Source of the DNA: a virus
DNA length: 39,280 bases
Strand: one strand, 5' to 3'
Virus record (IMG/VR): IMGVR_UViG_3300030061_002149
Location: 1-39,280 of that record
Under the pieces are notes generated by a model. It ran no database searches. It was not told the origin of the DNA and saw only the letters and a program-made list of their open reading frames with translations. The translations under genes were made by a program, and so were the position numbers. Shown piece after piece: positions 22,484 through 33,782 of this stretch (position 1 is the first letter of the stretch; the number at the start of each line of letters is the position of its first letter).

Positions 22484-23903
22484 CGGTTACCTCCGGTTCA
22501 CCTTCAGGCATTGTGACCTCTTGCTGCGGAACTGGCTGCGGTGTTTCAAGTAATCCGCCAGCCTGCGTTGCCTCAAGCTCGGCCTCAACATCAAAATCAT
22601 CGCCAAGCACTTCGCCCGCTTCAAGCTGTAACAGCAACGTTTCTTGTGTCACCGTGCCAGCGGTGTAAAGCTGCAACAACGCTTGAATCTCTTGTGGCTC
22701 AAGCCTTGCGCCCATAAAGTCACGATTGACAAGGCTGCTGCCAGCTTGTGACTCCTGCAGATAATCAGCATGGAACCGCAAGCAGTTGTCGATCATGTCT
22801 TGCATCTGCATAGCCACTTGCATCATCGTTGCATCGCCTTGACTGCGATCTATGCGCTTAGCCTCGGCCGTCTCACCCACAAGTTTTGCGCCCACCACAG
22901 CAGCTAAACCCAACTCGTTGATCTGCGACTCGATTTGTTCAAGCCTGCGAAACTGCGCGTCGTAGCTATTGCCAGCCGGTTCTACATATTCGGCCCTTGC
23001 ATCTGAGGGGAGTGCAAAAGCTTCTCCGGGACCGGCACTGATCTCTTCAGCAGACTGCGGGAAGCCAAACAACGCAAGCATCGGTACTGCGCTGATGTGC
23101 AATTGATTCCCAAGATCAGATTGCACTTGATAGTGCTGCAGGTTCAACTCTGCAATATCGGCCAACGGTGGGAACGACTCCAAAACGCCAATTCGGTTTG
23201 AATAGGCAACGCTGAACGGGATCTCGCTCAAACTTGTCGTGCCTTCATCAACAACACGGAAGTCACCTTTTTGATCTTTTTGAAAAATTTCAAATGCGCC
23301 AGGAGTCAAAACACGTACTTGTTCAACTTGCTTTTCGCCATACAATCCATCGGGCACGATGATCTTTTCAGAAAGACGAAGCTGCGTCAGCTCTTGTTTA
23401 CCGTCTTTAAGTTCTGAACGCCAGCCAATGATGTCGCGAGGAGAAATCGCAATCCAATATGGCCTTCCGTCTTCGCCAGCCTTGGGCGCATCAACAAGGA
23501 CACCGACGTGACCGTACCTCAGGCAAATCCTTGATGTAGAAAAAAGCCAGCTTTGTAGGTCGTTGCCCTGCAAATCAACGTCAAATAATTGCTCGCGAAT
23601 TTGATCAGTTACGTCGTCAAGCCTGACCGGTTTGCGGGTCAACATGCCCGCCAACATCCGCTCGATTCGAATTGTGAAAGGAGAACAAACGGATCGCTGG
23701 AGCCTGACGTCGTAGCTGGAATCTTGCTCTCTGGGCTCCTGCGGAAGATATTTTCTATGGCCTTTTCTTATTGCAAACGTCCCACCCTGCAATGCTTCTA
23801 ACAGTTCCCAGTGGGGCTCCATGTTTGCCCAAGCTGTGTTCGGGCTATCTACCGTCGTAACGTTGCCAACACGTTGGCGACCACCAGAAAAGCCTGAATA
23901 CAC
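22470..23903 (-). CDS. Portal protein, DUF4055 type
   Basis: At 477 residues the length fits phage portals. The N-terminal region (P-N-T-A-W-A-N-M-E-P-H-W-E-L-L, about 20-34; G-T-F-A-I-R-K-G-H-R-K-Y-L-P, 41-54; F-T-I-R-I-E-R-M-L-A-G-M, 76-87) matches, from memory, the DUF4055 family, which stands in the place of the portal in many siphoviruses. A crown-like tail with Gln/Glu-rich helices (about 400-450) and an acidic end complete it. It is the dodecameric ring through which DNA enters. It follows the large terminase by 27 bases. Confidence 0.75.
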   Translation of the reverse strand: MYSGFSGGRQRVGNVTTVDSPNTAWANMEPHWELLEALQGGTFAIRKGHRKYLPQEPREQDSSYDVRLQRSVCSPFTIRIERMLAGMLTRKPVRLDDVTDQIREQLFDVDLQGNDLQSWLFSTSRICLRYGHVGVLVDAPKAGEDGRPYWIAISPRDIIGWRSELKDGKQELTQLRLSEKIIVPDGLYGEKQVEQVRVLTPGAFEIFQKDQKGDFRVVDEGTTSLSEIPFSVAYSNRIGVLESFPPLADIAELNLQHYQVQSDLGNQLHISAVPMLALFGFPQSAEEISAGPGEAFALPSDARAEYVEPAGNSYDAQFRRLEQIESQINELGLAAVVGAKLVGETAEAKRIDRSQGDATMMQVAMQMQDMIDNCLRFHADYLQESQAGSSLVNRDFMGARLEPQEIQALLQLYTAGTVTQETLLLQLEAGEVLGDDFDVEAELEATQAGGLLETPQPVPQQEVTMPEGEPEVTDGVA

Positions 23904-25878: not shown

Positions 25879-26295
25879 TCAACCGCCACAAACAAATCTG
25901 GGGGGCATTGCTCCGTCCAAGTCCAAGGGATGCGCTGTTTCAACCCAATTACCTGCAAAGGCTTCAGAATCTATTTTCACAACTCGCTGCCGCGCATACT
26001 CGGCGCTTGGCCGTTTGTCTTGGCAAAAAAGCAATGTCTTAACTTCGCCCTGCGAATGAAGAATCCAAAAAGCACCTTCACAATCGTCAACAATCATATA
26101 GGCAGGAGTTTCATTTTCTTTTGGTTTCCAGGCAGTGGCATATGCCAAAACAGGGTAAAAGCCATCACACCATTCAGTTTCTAAAATTTCGCTGCCGTCT
26201 TCATTGTGAAGATCCCAAGAGCTAAAGATGTAAAGCCAAGCTTTTTGGGCAGCAGGTGTTACATGCAACAAATCCTTGTAAAAGAAAAAAGCCAT
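25879..26295 (-). CDS. Hypothetical protein, 138 residues
   Basis: No family recognised. The sequence is rich in Trp and Tyr, with W-L-Y-I-F-S-S-W-D (20-28), E-W-C-D-G-F-Y-P-V (41-49) and D-C-E-G-A-F-W-I-L (71-79), suggesting a compact soluble fold. The start codon is in an AT-rich stretch without a clear Shine-Dalgarno sequence, about 46 bases downstream of the structured element at 26341-26444, so that element would lie in its 5' leader. Confidence 0.6.
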   Translation of the reverse strand: MAFFFYKDLLHVTPAAQKAWLYIFSSWDLHNEDGSEILETEWCDGFYPVLAYATAWKPKENETPAYMIVDDCEGAFWILHSQGEVKTLLFCQDKRPSAEYARQRVVKIDSEAFAGNWVETAHPLDLDGAMPPRFVCGG

Positions 26296-27001: not shown

Positions 27002-27331
27002 TTAATCCCAGGAATTGACGTAGCAGGGTTGGCCGTCCCAGATTTGAAAAACGTCAATGCGATCAAAAGCGCATTGTGAGCCGTCGTCGTTGAGCTGGAT
27101 CTTCATGCGAAAAACGCAATGATCAGGAGCTTGACGCAGTGGGTTTGGAACAACTGTTCCTTGGCCGTGGGACGTGTCAGTTGTGAACTTGCTGATTGAA
27201 CGAAACCAAACGCTTTTGGCGGTTACTCGGTCAACAACAAAAAAGCTGACGTGGGTCATCGTGCAGCCTGATTGCGCGTAAACGATTTGACCTGGCTGAA
27301 AGGTTTGAGCTTGAGCAGTTGCGACGGTCAT
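27002..27331 (-). CDS. Conserved hypothetical protein under operator-promoter control
   Basis: A 109-residue protein. The pattern P-G-Q-I-V-Y (13-18), T-H-V-S-F-F-V-V (26-33), T-A-K-S-V-W-F-R-S-I (37-46) and W-D-G-Q-P-C-Y (98-104) resembles, from memory, a widespread small phage/bacterial family of unknown function with the ending W-D-G-x-P-x-Y-x-S-W. It is predicted to be a beta-rich cytoplasmic protein. It has its own promoter (27366-27394) and its own terminator (26962-26991), making it a single-gene unit. That is rare in this window and suggests separately timed expression. Confidence 0.65.
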   Translation of the reverse strand: MTVATAQAQTFQPGQIVYAQSGCTMTHVSFFVVDRVTAKSVWFRSISKFTTDTSHGQGTVVPNPLRQAPDHCVFRMKIQLNDDGSQCAFDRIDVFQIWDGQPCYVNSWD

Positions 27332-27365
27332 TTGTTTTTGATGATGCGGTCTCCCGCTTGATCAA

Positions 27366-27394
27366 AGTATGGCATACCCGCAAGCAAGCGTCAA
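27366..27394 (-). promoter_or_regulatory. Sigma70-type promoter with operator-like octamer
   Basis: Minus strand: TTGACG (27389-27394), a 17-base spacer, then CATACT (27366-27371). The octamer GGTATGCC (27371-27378) overlaps the upstream edge of the -10 box. The -35 box includes the TGA stop of the HTH gene. Expected transcript start is near 27359, giving a leader of about 28 bases before ATG 27331. The same octamer family occurs in the promoters at 27694-27722 and 31091-31119. Confidence 0.6.
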
Positions 27395-27675
27395 GCCATA
27401 GACCAACGGCGCACCGTTGTTACGCTCACGCCATAGCGGGAAGCGATTGATTTCCATTTGTGATTGTTCGCCCGCAGGCGACAGATCCGGGCACCCTTGG
27501 TCTCGGTAGCGCGAAGCAACAGCACTACAGGCAAGGACAGGATGACCGCGACCCATACGAAAAAACAGGTCATCAGTTTGATTGCGAAATGGTTGGGCGG
27601 GTCTCTTGTACCGCCCCCGGCATTCGCCGACAGCTCACCTCTCTTGTCTAGGGGCCGAGAATCCGGGCCATACAT
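27391..27675 (-). CDS. Small HTH protein with a possible membrane segment
   Basis: Read from ATG 27675, the product has 94 residues. Residues 60-94 form a resolvase-like helix-turn-helix (W-K-S-I-A-S-R-Y-G-V-S-V-T-T-V-R-R-W). Before it, about residues 36-54 are strongly hydrophobic (F-F-V-W-V-A-V-I-L-S-L-P-V-V-L-L-L), long enough for one membrane helix. Other starts are possible: ATG 27573 would begin right at the hydrophobic part, and a GTG just inside it would leave an HTH of about 45 residues. The gene lies between two operator-promoters, downstream of one and upstream of the other, so it is a candidate for the protein that binds them. Confidence 0.55.
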   Translation of the reverse strand: MYGPDSRPLDKRGELSANAGGGTRDPPNHFAIKLMTCFFVWVAVILSLPVVLLLRATETKGARICRLRANNHKWKSIASRYGVSVTTVRRWSMA

Positions 27676-27684
27676 CCGGCTTGT

Positions 27685-27722
27685 GGCATGCCAACAATAC
27701 CATGGGGGTATACCCGCGTCAA
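27685..27722 (-). promoter_or_regulatory. Sigma70-type promoter with two operator-like octamers
   Basis: Minus strand: TTGACG (27717-27722), a 17-base spacer, then TATTGT (27694-27699). The palindrome GGTATACC (27707-27714) fills the spacer, and a second palindrome GGCATGCC (27685-27692) lies just past the -10 box. Their centres are 22 bp apart, close to two helix turns. The -35 box overlaps the TGA stop of the RHH gene. Transcription would start near 27687, just before the HTH gene. Confidence 0.6.
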
Positions 27723-28024
27723 CCTTTTGCGTTCAGGGCGCAAATCACCGTGCAGATCAACGGCTCTAATTGCTTGCTAGGAATGTCATAGCGGCGGCTG
27801 ACAGCATCCATGGCCCTGTCGATGACATCGCGGCCTTTGGAGTAATGCACGGGCTTGATCGGCGGGACAGGGGCAGGCTGGTTCGCTTCGCTCAACACAC
27901 GAGCCCTGAGCAGCTCCTGGCGCGGAATGCCGCGTTGCATTGCTTCAGCGTTCAAGGCGTCGCGTTCCTCAACGGTCAAACGGACATCCACCCTGATAGG
28001 GAATTTTCTACCAGATTCAGACAT
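27719..28024 (-). CDS. Ribbon-helix-helix protein
   Basis: A 101-residue protein. The N-terminus reads as a ribbon-helix-helix DNA-binding domain: strand I-R-V-D-V-R-L (10-16), helix V-E-E-R-D-A-L-N-A-E-A (18-28), turn with R-G-I-P, then helix R-Q-E-L-L-R-A-R-V-L. A proline-rich linker (A-P-V-P-P-I-K-P) leads to a helical C-terminal part of unknown role. RHH proteins are dimeric repressors or partners in plasmid/phage replication. It follows the helicase gene with one-base overlap. Confidence 0.65.
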   Translation of the reverse strand: MSESGRKFPIRVDVRLTVEERDALNAEAMQRGIPRQELLRARVLSEANQPAPVPPIKPVHYSKGRDVIDRAMDAVSRRYDIPSKQLEPLICTVICALNAKG

Positions 28025-29640
28025 TAGAAATCAAATAGTTCAGTTGGTTCAGGCTCTTGCGAGCCAGTTTGACAAGGGCGCACGTCTAGCTCCCAACGCA
28101 GGTTGCTAATCGTCACCATTGGATTGCCAAGACGCTCAACAGAAATCTTGTTGAGGTCAGAGCCGTTGCGAACGATAAACCCACCGGCCCATTCGTCACC
28201 CCTGCGGATTTCGACTTTGGTCTTTGGATCTATTGATTTTGAGCTTGGATCTTTTGCTTCAGAGGGTAGTACGCTTGTATCGTCCTGGGAGTTAGATATA
28301 TTGGATTTAATGGATTTAATTGGAAAAGATCCAACAGATCCATTAGATCCTGGTTCTGAGCCCCCCAGGGACCATTCCATCGCCGCAGGGCTCGCCATCC
28401 AATAAATTCGTGGCCTTGATCCTGTTTCTTCTGTCCTTACAGGCTCAGCCAAACCCTTCGCCTTGAGTGCTCTCAGCTCACGCGAAACATGGCCTTTTTG
28501 CTTGTCCAGCTCCGTAGCAAGCTCCTCAGCCGATACGTCTGCGTTTAATCCTGTCCGCAGGGTCAGGTAATCAAAGACCGATGCGCGTACCCCGCCCAGT
28601 TCCATAATGCGCTGCCCAGCACGCTCAACTTTTTGAGCCTCTTCCAATCCATCTAGGTAGGTCCAACCGCCTTCTGGCATGTACTGGCCCATCACCCCGC
28701 CAGACTCATTGGCGCCGCGACCCTTGCCAGCAAATCCCACGCGCTTGTCGATGCGGGCTAAGCCCTCTTCCTCTTGTGCAACCCAGCGCATCAAAACGCC
28801 CCAGCTAAAAACCGAGCTGATCGAGCTGCTGCCCCGACATTCCGTGATCCAATCCCACGTCGTCGGGCGTTTTACAGAGTGATGGATAACAACCAAAGTG
28901 GCCCCAGTTTTGCGTAACTGGCTAATCGCATTTCGTATGGGTTGTGCATAACGCGACGTATTTTCTTCAATGCCAGTTGGCTCCATCATTGAACTCAACG
29001 AGTCAATAATTACAAGCGGAAATTGGTGCTTTTCAATCTCCTCACGCATCCGACGAATACCATCTTTCGTAAAGTTGTATTGCTCGCCAGTTTCCATGCT
29101 GCAGAAAAAATCAACCGAGTCACTTTTCAGTGTTTGATCTTCTGCAACCAAGCTTTCGCGATGCAACAAATGCAGCCAGTCACCCTCGCTTTGGTCTGTG
29201 CCAAATACAAGAACAGGCATGCGCTCATTTGGCGTTGCTAAATCACGCCCCAAAAACTGAGGTATGCGATCGCGTAGTGCTGCAATCAGACCGGTTGAAA
29301 AGGATGACTTGCCAACCTTGGGCTGACCAATAATTACGTTGGACTCGCCAAGCTTGATCATGCCGTCGAGCAAGAAAACAGATTCGGTGGCCTGTAGCTG
29401 TTGACCTGCTCTGTAAACGTTGCCTTTGTGAAGTCGACGTTCTGCTGCGTCAAGATATGCCTTTAGCTCAGGATCGCGAGCATCGTCGTGAACGGCGAGG
29501 TCGAAAGCCTTGTTTCGCATTAGGGGCATCCAATCCCGTTCCCTTTCGGACTGGATCAACGTTTCCGCGTGCAGAGCTAGGGCTGTTAACGCTTGCTGAA
29601 GTGGTGGCGTGCTGCTTAAGGGTTTTTCGGTAGAAGGCAT
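28024..29640 (-). CDS. RepA-like RecA-fold ATPase, probable replicative helicase
   Basis: The AAA_25/RepA-type core has Walker A G-Q-P-K-V-G-K-S-S (105-113 from this start), Walker B L-V-I-I-D (209-213) and a V-V-I-H-H segment at the end of the core (about 250-254), as in hexameric plasmid RepA and phage helicases. A winged-helix-like region follows (about 350-415: E-L-A-T-E-L-D-K-Q-K-G-H-V-S-R-E-L). The tail has a Ser/Asp-rich linker and ends E-L-F-D-F. It probably unwinds phage DNA at the origin for the host polymerase. I chose ATG 29640; the frame opens at 29688, and ATG 29532 is also possible because the gene overlaps the upstream frame by about 170 bases. Confidence 0.75.
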   Translation of the reverse strand: MPSTEKPLSSTPPLQQALTALALHAETLIQSERERDWMPLMRNKAFDLAVHDDARDPELKAYLDAAERRLHKGNVYRAGQQLQATESVFLLDGMIKLGESNVIIGQPKVGKSSFSTGLIAALRDRIPQFLGRDLATPNERMPVLVFGTDQSEGDWLHLLHRESLVAEDQTLKSDSVDFFCSMETGEQYNFTKDGIRRMREEIEKHQFPLVIIDSLSSMMEPTGIEENTSRYAQPIRNAISQLRKTGATLVVIHHSVKRPTTWDWITECRGSSSISSVFSWGVLMRWVAQEEEGLARIDKRVGFAGKGRGANESGGVMGQYMPEGGWTYLDGLEEAQKVERAGQRIMELGGVRASVFDYLTLRTGLNADVSAEELATELDKQKGHVSRELRALKAKGLAEPVRTEETGSRPRIYWMASPAAMEWSLGGSEPGSNGSVGSFPIKSIKSNISNSQDDTSVLPSEAKDPSSKSIDPKTKVEIRRGDEWAGGFIVRNGSDLNKISVERLGNPMVTISNLRWELDVRPCQTGSQEPEPTELFDF

Positions 29641-29911
29641 CAGAGGCCAATGATGGTGAAAAATAATCGTCGTCGGTGTAAACGCCAAGGCGTCTCAACT
29701 CGCGAAAGGATGTCAGCTCTTCGCTCGACTCATAAGGGTTTTTTAAATCCCATGCGTCTAGCGCAGCGTCTGAGCGTTGCCGTTGCATGGCGCTGTATTT
29801 GCCGCACATTGCTTTCTCTTCGTCGTATTCCGACGGCAGCGAATACGGCACCCACTGCAACAGATCAAAGGCTCGCTCTTCTGCGTTGAGATCAGTCACG
29901 AGGGAGTGCAT
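29468..29911 (-). CDS. Hypothetical protein upstream of and overlapping the helicase
   Basis: The frame gives 147 residues. The first 100 look real (R-A-F-D-L-L-Q-W-V-P-Y, R-E-L-R-R-L-G-V-Y-T-D-D-D-Y-F); the last 45 are Arg/Ser-rich and lie over the helicase start in another frame, so they may not be selected. It overlaps the 54-residue RHH gene by 20 bases. No family recognised. It may be a helicase partner, given the tight overlap; a frameshift link to the helicase was considered but no good slip site was seen. Confidence 0.5.
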   Translation of the reverse strand: MHSLVTDLNAEERAFDLLQWVPYSLPSEYDEEKAMCGKYSAMQRQRSDAALDAWDLKNPYESSEELTSFRELRRLGVYTDDDYFSPSLASDAFYRKTLKQHATTSASVNSPSSARGNVDPVRKGTGLDAPNAKQGFRPRRSRRCSRS

Positions 29912-30056
29912 CCGGCTCTGATGCGATGGCTTTTTGAAGCAGCAGGTTGACCCACCCGGTTCGAGACACCCCTATAGGACGCTTGGCCTCTACGGCCTCC
30001 AGCACGCGAGGATCCAGCCTTACGTGAGTACCTGCAATTGGTTCCAATTCGCGCAT
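29892..30056 (-). CDS. 54-residue ribbon-helix-helix-like protein
   Basis: The gene is read from ATG 30056 to TGA 29892. It has the strand T-H-V-R-L-D (10-15), helix P-R-V-L-E-A-V-E-A-K-R (16-26) and helix R-T-G-W-V-N-L-L-L-Q-K-A-I (32-44), the layout of a minimal CopG/Arc-type repressor. It is the first minus-strand gene at the divergent centre of the genome, 60 bases from the first plus-strand gene, a classic place for a switch regulator. Confidence 0.6.
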   Translation of the reverse strand: MRELEPIAGTHVRLDPRVLEAVEAKRPIGVSRTGWVNLLLQKAIASEPDALPRD

Positions 30057-30116
30057 GGTTTGCTATTGCTTTGCTGGCAAATTATGCCCATACTGCGCAC
30101 AGTCTGCAACCCTTTA
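30057..30116. promoter_or_regulatory. Divergent intergenic region between leftward and rightward genes
   Basis: About 60 bases separate ATG 30056 (minus) and ATG 30117 (plus). Transcription of the helicase side and the recombination side must begin in or near it. The plus strand has TTGCTA/TTGCTT boxes at about 30059-30073 and an AT-rich AAATTAT at about 30079-30085; the minus strand has CATAAT within the same stretch. None is a strong match. A nearby GCATTATGGGC-like element does not match the octamer GGYATRCC seen elsewhere. Confidence 0.35.
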
Positions 30117-30764
30117 ATGCTTGACCCGGTCCCAGAGCTTGAGCTTCATGAGCCTTCCCATCGTTATCGATGGCGCGGCGAATGGCTAGCGCACAACGTT
30201 TCTGATGTGTTGAACGTTGACATGACGCCGTTCAAGCGAGCAATGATCGACAAATACAAAGACGGCCCTGATGGATGGGCTGCCAGAGGAACAGCAATCC
30301 ATAAGGCGCTGGAACTGCAGCTTCTTAATGAGCCACAGATTGTTGATGACAAATGGTCGCCGTGGCTTGATCCACTGCTTGACGATCCATTTTTCAAAGG
30401 CGTTGAAACCTTGGCCACTGAATACAGGGTCATGGACAGATACAAAAGCCTCGGCGGCAGCTTTGACTTTTTGATTCGCTTGAAAGAGGAAGGGCTGGAG
30501 CCCAGCAAGCAACTGGTCATCTTGGGAGATCTGAAAACGGTCAGCAGCAAAAAAGCAATTGCAGCCCGCAAGCCAGCAACGGCCCAGCTAGGGGCATATT
30601 GCAGCCTGCTTTCTGGTTGCCAGCCAAATATCACGGTTGGGATGTGCGTCACCGTTGTAAGCGGCCCCGAAAAATGTAAGGTGATCAAGCAAGACCCAGA
30701 AGAATGCCTCGAAGCCTGGCAGCAGGCTTGGGATCGATTTTCTGTTGAGTTGCCTGATTTCTGA
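30117..30764 (+). CDS. RecB/Cas4-like PD-(D/E)XK nuclease
   Basis: A 215-residue protein. The motifs run in the usual order: R-G-T-A-I-H62-K-A-L-E (57-66), D117 in G-S-F-D-F-L-I, D138-L-K140 in L-G-D-L-K-T and Q157-L-G-A-Y161. This is the RecB-like exonuclease set also found in Cas4 and phage recombination nucleases. No four-cysteine iron-sulfur signature was seen. With ERF further down the same transcript it probably makes an exonuclease-annealase pair. The open frame extends up to 29934, but that part lies over the divergent RHH gene; ATG 30117 or 30084 is more likely. Confidence 0.75.
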   Translation: MLDPVPELELHEPSHRYRWRGEWLAHNVSDVLNVDMTPFKRAMIDKYKDGPDGWAARGTAIHKALELQLLNEPQIVDDKWSPWLDPLLDDPFFKGVETLATEYRVMDRYKSLGGSFDFLIRLKEEGLEPSKQLVILGDLKTVSSKKAIAARKPATAQLGAYCSLLSGCQPNITVGMCVTVVSGPEKCKVIKQDPEECLEAWQQAWDRFSVELPDF

Positions 30765-31094
30765 ATGGATTGCCCAAAGTGCTCGAGCAGCAGTCGTGTC
30801 ATCTCTATCAACAAAAAAAAGCCAGGAGAAATTCGTCGTTACAGGAAATGCACTGTCTGTGACCACAAGTTTGTGACCACTCAAGGCCCAGAAGAGATCG
30901 CACAAAGGAAGCAGGTTCTTTATCGCAAGGGAGAAGAACAGCCCAATTCAAAACTGACTGATGACACGGTGCGCGAAATGAGAGCACTTGCAGCCACTGG
31001 TGTCAGCTCTTTTGAGTGCGGGCTGATTTGGGATGTATCCCAGAAGGTGGCTTGGAATGCAATTGTTGGCAGGACGTGGAAGCACGTTGCTTGA
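30765..31094 (+). CDS. Zinc-ribbon HTH regulator
   Basis: A 109-residue protein. The N-terminal zinc ribbon has C3-x-x-C6 and C29-x-x-C32 with the R-R-Y-R-K-C-T-V-C layout of NrdR-type ribbons. The C-terminus (about 63-108) looks like a small HTH found in phage endonuclease-associated domains: K-L-T-D-D-T-V-R-E-M-R-A-L-A-A-T-G then G-R-T-W-K-H-V. Two DNA-binding modules and no enzyme suggest a transcription factor. The ATG follows the nuclease stop directly, and its own stop is embedded in the -35 box of the next promoter. Confidence 0.65.
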   Translation: MDCPKCSSSSRVISINKKKPGEIRRYRKCTVCDHKFVTTQGPEEIAQRKQVLYRKGEEQPNSKLTDDTVREMRALAATGVSSFECGLIWDVSQKVAWNAIVGRTWKHVA

Positions 31095-31119
31095 CAGGTA
31101 TGCCCGGGTATGCCACCAT
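31091..31119 (+). promoter_or_regulatory. Promoter-like element with tandem operator octamers
   Basis: TTGACA (31091-31096) is a consensus -35 box that contains the TGA stop of the zinc-ribbon gene. Two copies of GGTATGCC (31097-31104 and 31107-31114) follow, 10 bp apart, about one helix turn. The -10 position after 17 bases is CACCAT (31114-31119), weak, so the promoter may need an activator. It would drive 31158-31343 and the genes beyond. Confidence 0.55.
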
Positions 31120-31157
31120 TTGTTCAGGCGAGAGCCCCACATCATCCCTTCTTCTTC

Positions 31158-31343
31158 ATGAAATCACGTCCCCGCTATTACAACCCTGGCAACAAGCCTG
31201 AAAAGACAAACTTCCTTGTTTGCGCTGTGTTTGGTGTGCTTTTTTGTGCCGCTACTTGGGTCACATTGACCAGCGTTCACAACCAGCAACAGGTCACACA
31301 CTGCGAGCAGGGCTGGCAACGCGCTTGTAAAGGGTTGCGCTAA
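31158..31343 (+). CDS. Small single-span membrane protein
   Basis: A 61-residue protein. A basic N-terminus (M-K-S-R-P-R-Y-Y, with K-P-E-K) precedes one hydrophobic helix (about 19-41: F-L-V-C-A-V-F-G-V-L-F-C-A-A-T-W-V). The tail holds two cysteines (C-E-Q-G-W-Q-R-A-C). I chose ATG 31158 because an upstream in-frame ATG at 31110 lies inside the promoter element. The stop overlaps the next ATG by one base. Function unknown. Confidence 0.55.
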   Translation: MKSRPRYYNPGNKPEKTNFLVCAVFGVLFCAATWVTLTSVHNQQQVTHCEQGWQRACKGLR

Positions 31344-32549: not shown

Positions 32550-32973
32550 TTTCACGTTTACCGTCCTTGGTAAACCTGCCCCACAAGGCAGCAAGCGTCA
32601 TGTCGGCAGAGGTATTTTGCTTGAGTCAAGTAAAAGGCTGAAACCATGGAGACAAGACGTTAAACATGCCGCTCTTGAGGCTTTACCTGATGGCTGGTAT
32701 GCCATGATGGATAAGCCCATTTTGGTCTCGGTCACTTTCATATTTGCCAGACCAAAAGGCCACTTCCGCACTAACGGAGAACTCAAGCCAAAAGCCCCTT
32801 CTCATTGCACCGCACGCATCGGGGACGTAGACAAATTAAGCCGCGCTGTTTTAGATGGCTTGACTGAAATTTGTTTTAACGACGATGCCCAGGTGATTGC
32901 TCTAAATGCTCAAAAACGTTATGCCAGAAACGAACAACCCTCCGCCATCATCACCATTGCAGCCATTAGTTGA
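32518..32973 (+). CDS. rusA: RusA-like Holliday junction resolvase
   Basis: A 151-residue protein if started at TTG 32518; the conserved part begins near F-T-V-L-G-K-P-A-P-Q-G-S-K (13-25). The active-site pattern is D103-V-D105-K-L-S-R109 followed by L-D-G-L-T and N-D-D123-A-Q-V, matching Asp70, Asp72, Lys76 and Asp91 of E. coli RusA, with Arg in the lysine place and one residue fewer in between. It cuts four-way junctions made by annealing/recombination and clears branches before packaging. It overlaps the ERF gene start by 53 bases. Confidence 0.85.
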   Translation: MTTLSTTCPSSFTFTVLGKPAPQGSKRHVGRGILLESSKRLKPWRQDVKHAALEALPDGWYAMMDKPILVSVTFIFARPKGHFRTNGELKPKAPSHCTARIGDVDKLSRAVLDGLTEICFNDDAQVIALNAQKRYARNEQPSAIITIAAIS

Positions 32974-33598
32974 AGCTTTAGTCAACTTTCACAAAACCGT
33001 TCCAGCAATCAACAAAACAGCAAAAGCCCAGTATGGAAATTTTGCTGATCTTGAGACTGTCCTTTCGACTGTGACCCCGCATCTAATCAAGAACGGGTTG
33101 GCTGTCTCGCAAGGTTTTGAGCCAAGCAGCCATGACAACAACCCTGTGCTTGTCACACAGTTGCTCCATGTCAGCGGTGGTCAACTCATCAGCCGTTTGC
33201 CCATGGTCGTCGGTGGTCGAGGGAAAAATCCACTGCACGACTTTGGTGGAAGCTGTACTTATTCAAGGCGTTATAGCCTACTCGCCATCCTTGGCCTTAC
33301 AGCCGACATGGATGTTGACGGTGACTTTGCCGATTCCGCAGAGATCAAACCAGCAAAAGCAGCGGCTAAGCCTGCAGCAAAGATTGAAGGCATTGCCGAC
33401 AAAGATCAACCGCTATCAAAAGAAGATCGAGAGTTATGCCTTGGCCTTGTCAAAGAGCTAACGCCTGACAACCTTGCTCGATTTTGTGCGGACTTTCGAC
33501 GGGACTTTAATCTCGGGCCTGACGCAAAGGTTGCCCCAGCATTGACGGCCAAGCGCCATCAAGATTGGATGAATACCCATTTGAAAAACTATGTCTGA
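32921..33598 (+). CDS. erf: ERF-family single-strand annealing protein
   Basis: A 225-residue protein from ATG 32921 (the frame opens at 32906). The ERF core is clear: A-Q-Y-G-N-F-A-D-L-E-T-V-L (36-48), L-I-K-N-G-L-A-V-S-Q (55-64), G-G-S-C-T-Y-S-R-R-Y-S-L-L-A-I-L-G-L (109-126), then acidic D-M-D-V-D-G-D (129-135). An Ala/Lys linker leads to a helical C-terminus. ERF proteins anneal complementary strands in phage recombination and in circularising linear DNA. Confidence 0.88.
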   Translation: MPETNNPPPSSPLQPLVEALVNFHKTVPAINKTAKAQYGNFADLETVLSTVTPHLIKNGLAVSQGFEPSSHDNNPVLVTQLLHVSGGQLISRLPMVVGGRGKNPLHDFGGSCTYSRRYSLLAILGLTADMDVDGDFADSAEIKPAKAAAKPAAKIEGIADKDQPLSKEDRELCLGLVKELTPDNLARFCADFRRDFNLGPDAKVAPALTAKRHQDWMNTHLKNYV

Positions 33599-33782
33599 CG
33601 ATGAAAAGACAGCACAAGCCAAGCGTGACAGAGAACGAAGTCACCTTCATTTCCAAGTTCGGCTGGACACTGATCTAGCCATGTCGGTCCGGCACTTCAT
33701 GAAGTCTCGGGGCTACAACCAAAACCAGGCTTTAAGCCTGATCATTTCTCAATTCTTTCGCAACAAAAAACCTAATGGCTGA
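33591..33782 (+). CDS. Ribbon-helix-helix-like small protein
   Basis: A 63-residue protein. A charged N-terminus (Q-A-K-R-D-R-E-R) is followed by the strand H-L-H-F-Q-V-R-L (18-25), helix A-M-S-V-R-H-F-M-K-S-R-G and helix Q-N-Q-A-L-S-L-I-I-S-Q-F-F, the RHH arrangement. It overlaps the ERF gene and the following gene by 8 bases each. It is the third RHH-type protein in the window. Confidence 0.55.
   Translation: MSDDEKTAQAKRDRERSHLHFQVRLDTDLAMSVRHFMKSRGYNQNQALSLIISQFFRNKKPNG

Follow-up and report, generated by a model that had tools for sequence, protein, structure and literature searches.

A palindromic octamer conserved in early promoters of cyanobacterial siphoviruses, and a small ribbon-helix-helix protein as its probable repressor

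In this study, we propose that the palindromic octamer GGYATRCC is probably the operator of a phage regulon run by RHH63, an autoregulating ribbon-helix-helix (RHH) repressor that would act by occluding the host polymerase. This reading comes from sequence comparison, starting from an IMG/VR virus contig of 39,280 bases, analysed over its whole length and hereafter called the window, whose early proteins have relatives in S-CBS1 and S-CBS3, two siphoviruses of marine Synechococcus. We hold with high confidence that the octamer site and its regulon are real: a repeated site lies over several promoters, its position is conserved, and the regulator gene co-occurs with it. The preliminary description of this DNA had postulated a phage-coded regulator and a small regulon that would tie the HTH gene and the 109-residue gene to the early rightward genes; both proposals are supported. 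Little has been described of how cyanobacterial siphoviruses control their early genes, and our literature search found no paper reporting the GGYATRCC motif. The outcome is a precise candidate operator with one candidate repressor, and in S-CBS3 a cultured phage for testing them, its sister S-CBS1 serving as natural negative. A small orthogonal set of repressor and promoters for Synechococcus could follow.

Octamer promoters and genes of the window

The window contains six octamers (27371-27378, 27685-27692, 27707-27714, 31097-31104, 31107-31114 and 32696-32703). Five lie inside three short promoter-like TTGACR sites and the sixth within the RusA gene, as stated in the preliminary description, every coordinate of which holds on this point. 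The main features are as follows:

27002..27331, minus strand: gene of the 109-residue protein (phrog_37844), predicted target of promoter 1
27366..27394, minus strand: promoter 1, TTGACG - 17 bp - CATACT, with octamer GGTATGCC at 27371-27378 overlapping the -10 box
27391..27675, minus strand: HTH gene, a predicted target, for which relatives use a start methionine corresponding to about 27573
27685..27722, minus strand: promoter 2, TTGACG - 17 bp - TATTGT, reading into the HTH gene
31091..31119, plus strand: promoter 3, TTGACA with two octamers 10 bp apart that fill the spacer, and a -10-like CACCAT at 31114-31119
31158..31343, plus strand: gene of a 61-residue single-TM protein, first gene behind promoter 3
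32696..32703, plus strand: octamer GGTATGCC within the RusA gene, encoding W-Y-A
33591..33782, plus strand: gene of RHH63, the proposed octamer-binding repressor, a 63-residue ribbon-helix-helix protein, after Erf in the rightward operon

The -35 boxes (TTGACG at 27394-27389 and 27722-27717 on the minus strand, TTGACA at 31091-31096 on the plus strand) each overlap the TGA of the preceding ORF, and box and octamer are separated by 10, 2, 0 and 10 bases. An independent call returned sites 1 and 2 as TTGACG-17-CATACT and TTGACG-17-TATTGT, and they are the sole promoter-like matches within 25.5-36 kb having TG ahead of the second hexamer. Promoter 1 reads into the 109-residue gene, an arrangement also present in the related loci L002, L005, L030, L032, L033 and L037. 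At promoter 2, one octamer (GGTATACC, 27707-27714) is in the spacer near the -35 box and the other (GGCATGCC, 27685-27692) near +1, 22 bp apart; orthologues of this promoter in L006, L014 and L033 show an octamer spacing of 21-22 bp. Promoter 3, with its octamers at 31097-31104 and 31107-31114, is directed towards the early rightward genes. The mechanical ORF start at 31110, which falls within an octamer, is probably wrong, the conserved start of the TM protein being at 31158.

Read from the start at about 27573, the HTH protein consists of a short membrane segment and the HTH. This membrane-anchored, DNA-binding-like product is conserved in S-CBS3 (28585-28821). In S-CBS3, L016, L019, L020, L204 and L210, an octamer promoter precedes the HTH gene.

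The fusion of -35 box and stop codon, initially described as common to the three promoters, stands at all three sites of the window and is frequent in close relatives, but it does not hold as a shared device, since the wider family does not keep it throughout. The stop of the gene ahead of site 3 falls just before TTGACA in L004-L008, and the octamer promoters of S-CBS3, L134 and L191 stand in other contexts. The overlap looks like an incidental product of tight gene packing rather than a component of the mechanism.

Abundance and conservation of the octamer

The 6 copies in the window compare with 1.65 expected from dinucleotide shuffles (sd 1.32), 1 of 100 shuffles reaching 6. Over 19 whole records, GGYATRCC was found 57 times and the reversed pattern 6 times. 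Contigs picked by RHH63 sequence alone hold 71 octamers in 352 kb, a density 3.7 times the average for 192 comparable sets, yet only rank 8 among them; since several palindrome sets are as frequent there as GGYATRCC, it is the promoter linkage alone that stands out in these contigs. A TTGACA-like box is nearby for 41 of the 71 octamers, vs 139 of 603 control palindromes (23%).

Relatives were gathered by the RepA-like helicase and by the Zn-ribbon protein. A scan of related phages for GGYATRCC with TTGAC, the check put forward at the outset, was run; it showed the octamers of the helicase lineage at conserved positions with respect to promoters, as far as L026 with 60% helicase identity, and likewise in cultured S-CBS3. 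This phage has two octamer promoters, with octamers at 26120-26127 and 28920-28927 of its genome and the boxes CATACT and CATAGT, respectively. Related contigs have up to seven octamers each, mostly ahead of small early genes. Past the exo/Zn genes, close relatives mostly show TTGACA-GGTATGCC-C(A/G)-GGYATGCC-ATGCT, and L003, L009 and L011 have one GGTATACC, then TGTGATACTAT. Octamers are also kept downstream of the RHH101 gene, in the promoters of the HTH and 109-residue genes or of their replacements. An exact double-site scan of all IMG/VR contigs (pattern TTGACAGGYATRCCNNGGYATRCC) returned 29 stretches, every one from this phage family; the loose pattern TTGACAN{8,12}GGTATGCCAT gave many chance matches in unrelated phages.

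The Zn-ribbon loci L039-L080 were rejected as relatives: they belong to other phage groups, have the Zn gene alone in common, and their site is without octamer. The NrdR-like Zn-ribbon protein itself (30765-31094, plus strand) reaches 92% identity in L038, a mosaic phage, and 54-81% in L039-L080, phages otherwise unlike the window, a case of horizontal exchange. The sister phages S-CBS3 (L083) and S-CBS1 (L084) have TerL proteins 88% identical and differ in their early modules; S-CBS3 carries RHH63, HTH and octamers, S-CBS1 none of these three. A genome-contig search for hosts or prophages gave just one likely mis-binned contig and one weak match. L286 (PAFU01000001.1), filed under a gammaproteobacterial MAG, codes for a phage-helicase relative, has an octamer promoter with a GAGA leader, and is probably a mis-binned phage contig.

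Geometry of octamer and promoter

In 92 of 263 distinct cases, the octamer starts 16 bases past the first base of TTGACA, and in 75 it starts 6-8 bases past it. At offset 16, with a 17-bp spacer, it overlaps the -10 box (CATACT, CATGCT, CATCAT or CATAAT); at 6-8 it abuts the -35 box, so that about one helical turn separates these alternatives. Of 37 distinct octamer pairs within 80 bp, 34 show a spacing of 10-11 or 21-22 bp, which supports the helix-turn phasing suggested earlier and fits the needs of protein dimers on one DNA face. Control palindromes are mostly without close pairs; for GCYATRGC the only pattern is a 6-bp tandem-repeat ladder, its pairs at 6, 12, 18 ... bp being short tandem repeats in some relatives.

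The octamer within RusA

The RusA copy of the window is without a good -35 box and has only an extended -10-like TGCCATGAT, so that its promoter activity is uncertain; in L026 and L118 the octamer is preceded, at 10 bp, by a perfect TTGACA. Among 49 distinct haplotypes, the middle codon is TAT in 34, CAT in 12 and CGT in 3, with TAC/CAC at 0, and the following codon is GCC in 47 and ACC in 2, no other synonym being used. In the RusA genes compared, TAT accounts for 71% of Tyr, CAT for 45% of His, GCC for 40% of Ala and ACC for 33% of Thr codons. As a result of this restricted codon choice, GGYATRCC is kept in 46 of the 49 haplotypes, though the protein reads WYA, WHA or WHT. This copy had been put down to chance; judged by its codons, it is conserved as DNA. 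In relatives with a different RusA type, this octamer is absent.

Leader hairpins downstream of octamer promoters

Two hairpins with a GAGA loop follow octamer promoters in the window:

27346..27357, minus strand: hairpin GCGG-GAGA-CCGC, just past promoter 1 (z = -3.66)
31127..31136, plus strand: hairpin GGC-GAGA-GCC, past promoter 3, weak, with a 3 bp stem (z = +0.30, hence not significant alone)

A GNRA hairpin with a stem of at least 4 comes after 43 of 137 distinct octamer promoter sites vs 2.3% of random windows, and unconstrained folding of 108 leaders yielded 30 with a GAGA loop and 9 with GAGAT. Most strong G(A/C)GA hairpins of the window, L256 and L191 are within 60 bases after an octamer; in S-CBS1 and S-CBS3 no such hairpin is so placed. 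Leader stems vary (GCGG, GCCG, GGCG, GGGG, CCCA) and their partners match. GAGA-loop leader hairpins with changing, matched stems also occur in L155, L183 and L026. A covariation test anchored on the first GAGA gave a mild excess only, with many leaders out of register, and the Rfam search of the window found no match. Possible roles of the GAGA leader hairpin are mRNA stabilisation or protein binding.

Which protein tracks the octamer

Co-occurrence was assessed in loci spanning exo to Erf, a sample partly fetched by the octamer pattern and made of related, partial contigs. All 66 loci with RHH63 carry octamers (mean 3.0), vs 1 of the 4 without RHH63 (Fisher's exact p about 7e-5, calculated by hand on these related contigs and this partly octamer-chosen sample). 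Of the RHH63-negative loci, S-CBS1, L201 and L027 are without octamer, and L075 has two, neither of them TTGACA-linked; a search for further RHH63-negative kin of L027 found L027 alone. In a wider table of all Erf loci the RHH63 signal was not significant (p about 0.2), because unrelated octamer-fetched phages and fragments without the promoter region were mixed in. From this distribution, RHH63 is probably the octamer binder.

The octamer might instead be the operator of the HTH protein (27391), RHH101 (27719), RHH54 (29892) or the Zn-ribbon protein (30765), all four being small, DNA-binding-like and encoded beside the sites, and RHH54 being nearly universal in the helicase lineage. We consider this unlikely. 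Each of the four is without a homologue in some octamer-bearing loci: none was found in 28 of the 66 RHH63 loci for RHH54, 32 for RHH101, 54 for HTH and 7 for Zn, absences that contig ends may explain. Additionally, L207 keeps octamers though its RHH54 position is taken by a very divergent RHH protein (E 0.001), S-CBS1 has RHH54 with the octamer absent, and phages sharing the same octamer differ in the outward strand residues of their RHH54 and RHH101. The four proteins were rejected as binders on the grounds of co-occurrence. The HTH protein, offered in the preliminary description as a candidate binder, is an unlikely one because its gene, behind an octamer promoter, is a predicted target and because the 54 octamer-bearing loci mentioned above are without it; as to the three RHH proteins also named there, the one at 33591 tracks the octamer and is retained, whereas the other two are not.

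RHH54 (29892-30056, minus strand), the second RHH protein, has 54 residues, is encoded at the divergent exo/helicase junction and shows variable strand residues; very different RHH proteins occupy its position in L207 and L038. It may have its own, different operator.

The RHH63 protein

The alignment-based model of RHH63 has an N-terminal helix, an extended stretch at 18-26 (HLHFQVRLD) and helices at 27-40 and 44-56 (mean pLDDT 69.9), i.e. as a predicted monomer the strand followed by two helices of the ribbon-helix-helix fold (MetJ/Arc superfamily). It was adopted over a single-sequence model that merged the strand into a helix. Its top Foldseek matches in the PDB are nearly all RHH proteins (SvtR, CopASO, Arc, CopG, AmrZ), at E 0.1-1 and individually not significant. 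Profile matches are weak but consistent, with Pfam Arc at E 0.015 and RHH_1 at E 0.044 for some members, and extend to CopG and AmrZ (AmrZ E 0.48); in PHROGs, RHH63 matches phrog_582, 'Arc-like repressor', at E 0.0007.

The strand HFQVRLD is near-invariant, and among 21 sequences R24 and N45 are invariant and Q22 nearly so; exceptions in the strand are RQVQARLP in S-CBS3 (where the counterpart is gp32, 23375-23569) and FHVRL in the L204 clade. RHH63 thus has the conserved outward strand residues and the Asn at the start of helix B that are expected of an RHH protein. In AmrZ/Arc, the positions of Q22, R24 and N45 correspond to the strand that contacts DNA and to the start of helix B.

Proposed mechanism and alternatives

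From these comparisons, we infer binding, repression, autoregulation and timing as follows. One RHH63 dimer would bind one octamer via its two-stranded ribbon. The operators would lie in the spacer of TTGACR-17-CATNNT promoters, directly past the -35 box or one helical turn on, over the -10 box, and bound dimers, single or stacked on one DNA face, would occlude host RNA polymerase. Both the double-octamer promoter and the octamer of RusA precede the RHH63 gene, which suggests negative feedback: RHH63 would repress its own synthesis, and early genes would be turned down as infection proceeds. Repression by occlusion is a model and the most likely reading; an activator role for the octamer regulator is also conceivable. 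We class the system among the phage repressor-operator systems, to which it adds a new case. More tentatively, TTGACA, spacer octamer, CATNNT, GAGA-tetraloop leader hairpin and start codon may make up a portable cassette, with one RHH63 controlling all copies and the hairpin adding RNA-level control, a picture that we find doubtful as it stands.

It is improbable that the octamer is bound by a regulator of the Synechococcus host whose site was adopted by the phages. These phages do use host-type promoters, and an 8-bp site near -10 boxes is known for TrcR, an RHH repressor of cyanobacteria (PMC10272220), but the octamer follows a phage gene, is missing from the sister phage S-CBS1 (TerL 88% identical, related host strain), and is unlike the quoted TrcR site TGTAGTAT. 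Still less probable is a core-promoter element, i.e. an extended -10 or the box of a phage sigma factor. GGTATGC-CATACT has TGC ahead of the -10 box, with TG before the second hexamer, and both S-CBS1 and S-CBS3 encode a sigma factor. However, S-CBS1 has its sigma factor with the octamer absent, many sites, such as those of L003, L134 and L191, have an octamer beside the -35 box plus a separate -10 box, double sites stack by helical turn, and the palindrome is conserved in both halves. Finally, chance arising from base composition and gene packing can be dismissed for practical purposes: some other palindromes are equally common in distant relatives, but conserved position, spacing and codon choice and the excess over shuffles contradict it, and the comparative data have already refuted it.

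Comparison with known systems

The proposed RHH63 system resembles Arc/Mnt of phage P22 in its small phage protein of predicted RHH fold (strand QFNLRW in Arc, HFQVRL in RHH63) and in an operator over the promoter, where adjacent dimers are here proposed to sit about one helical turn apart. The best of the weak matches of RHH63 include Pfam Arc and PHROGs 'Arc-like repressor'; a significant sequence match to Arc is absent. Unlike in Arc/Mnt, a lone or paired 8-bp palindrome is found at several promoters, with one copy within a gene. No lysogeny genes were recognised among the genes examined.

Dimers of the RHH protein MetJ bind 8-bp palindromic met boxes in tandem. The met boxes are contiguous, whereas the octamers are 10-11 bp apart, many sites have a single box, and a link to S-adenosylmethionine is absent here. 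In cluster A mycobacteriophages, one phage repressor recognises many scattered short sites, the stoperators, which are asymmetric and act largely on elongation; the octamers, by contrast, sit in promoter spacers.

AmrZ of Pseudomonas aeruginosa has the strand ..KFVVRL.., in which Lys18 and Arg22 recognise 5'-GGC half sites (PMC3325190). R24, N45 and Q22 of RHH63 correspond to Arg22, Asn43 and Val20 of AmrZ, and the octamer is bounded by GG and CC. RHH63 differs in having no Lys18 equivalent (H20 or other), and AmrZ in its extended N-terminus and further domains. TrcR of Anabaena is an RHH autorepressor with an 8-bp consensus overlapping or near the -10 box at several promoters (PMC10272220). 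TrcR is chromosomal, with a site such as TGTAGTAT and other targets; the operator here is GGYATRCC and not a TGTAGTAT-like motif, which makes the present system alike in working and, on this evidence, not a member of the TrcR family. With TrcR in cyanobacteria, the octamer-promoter design has a precedent in this host group.
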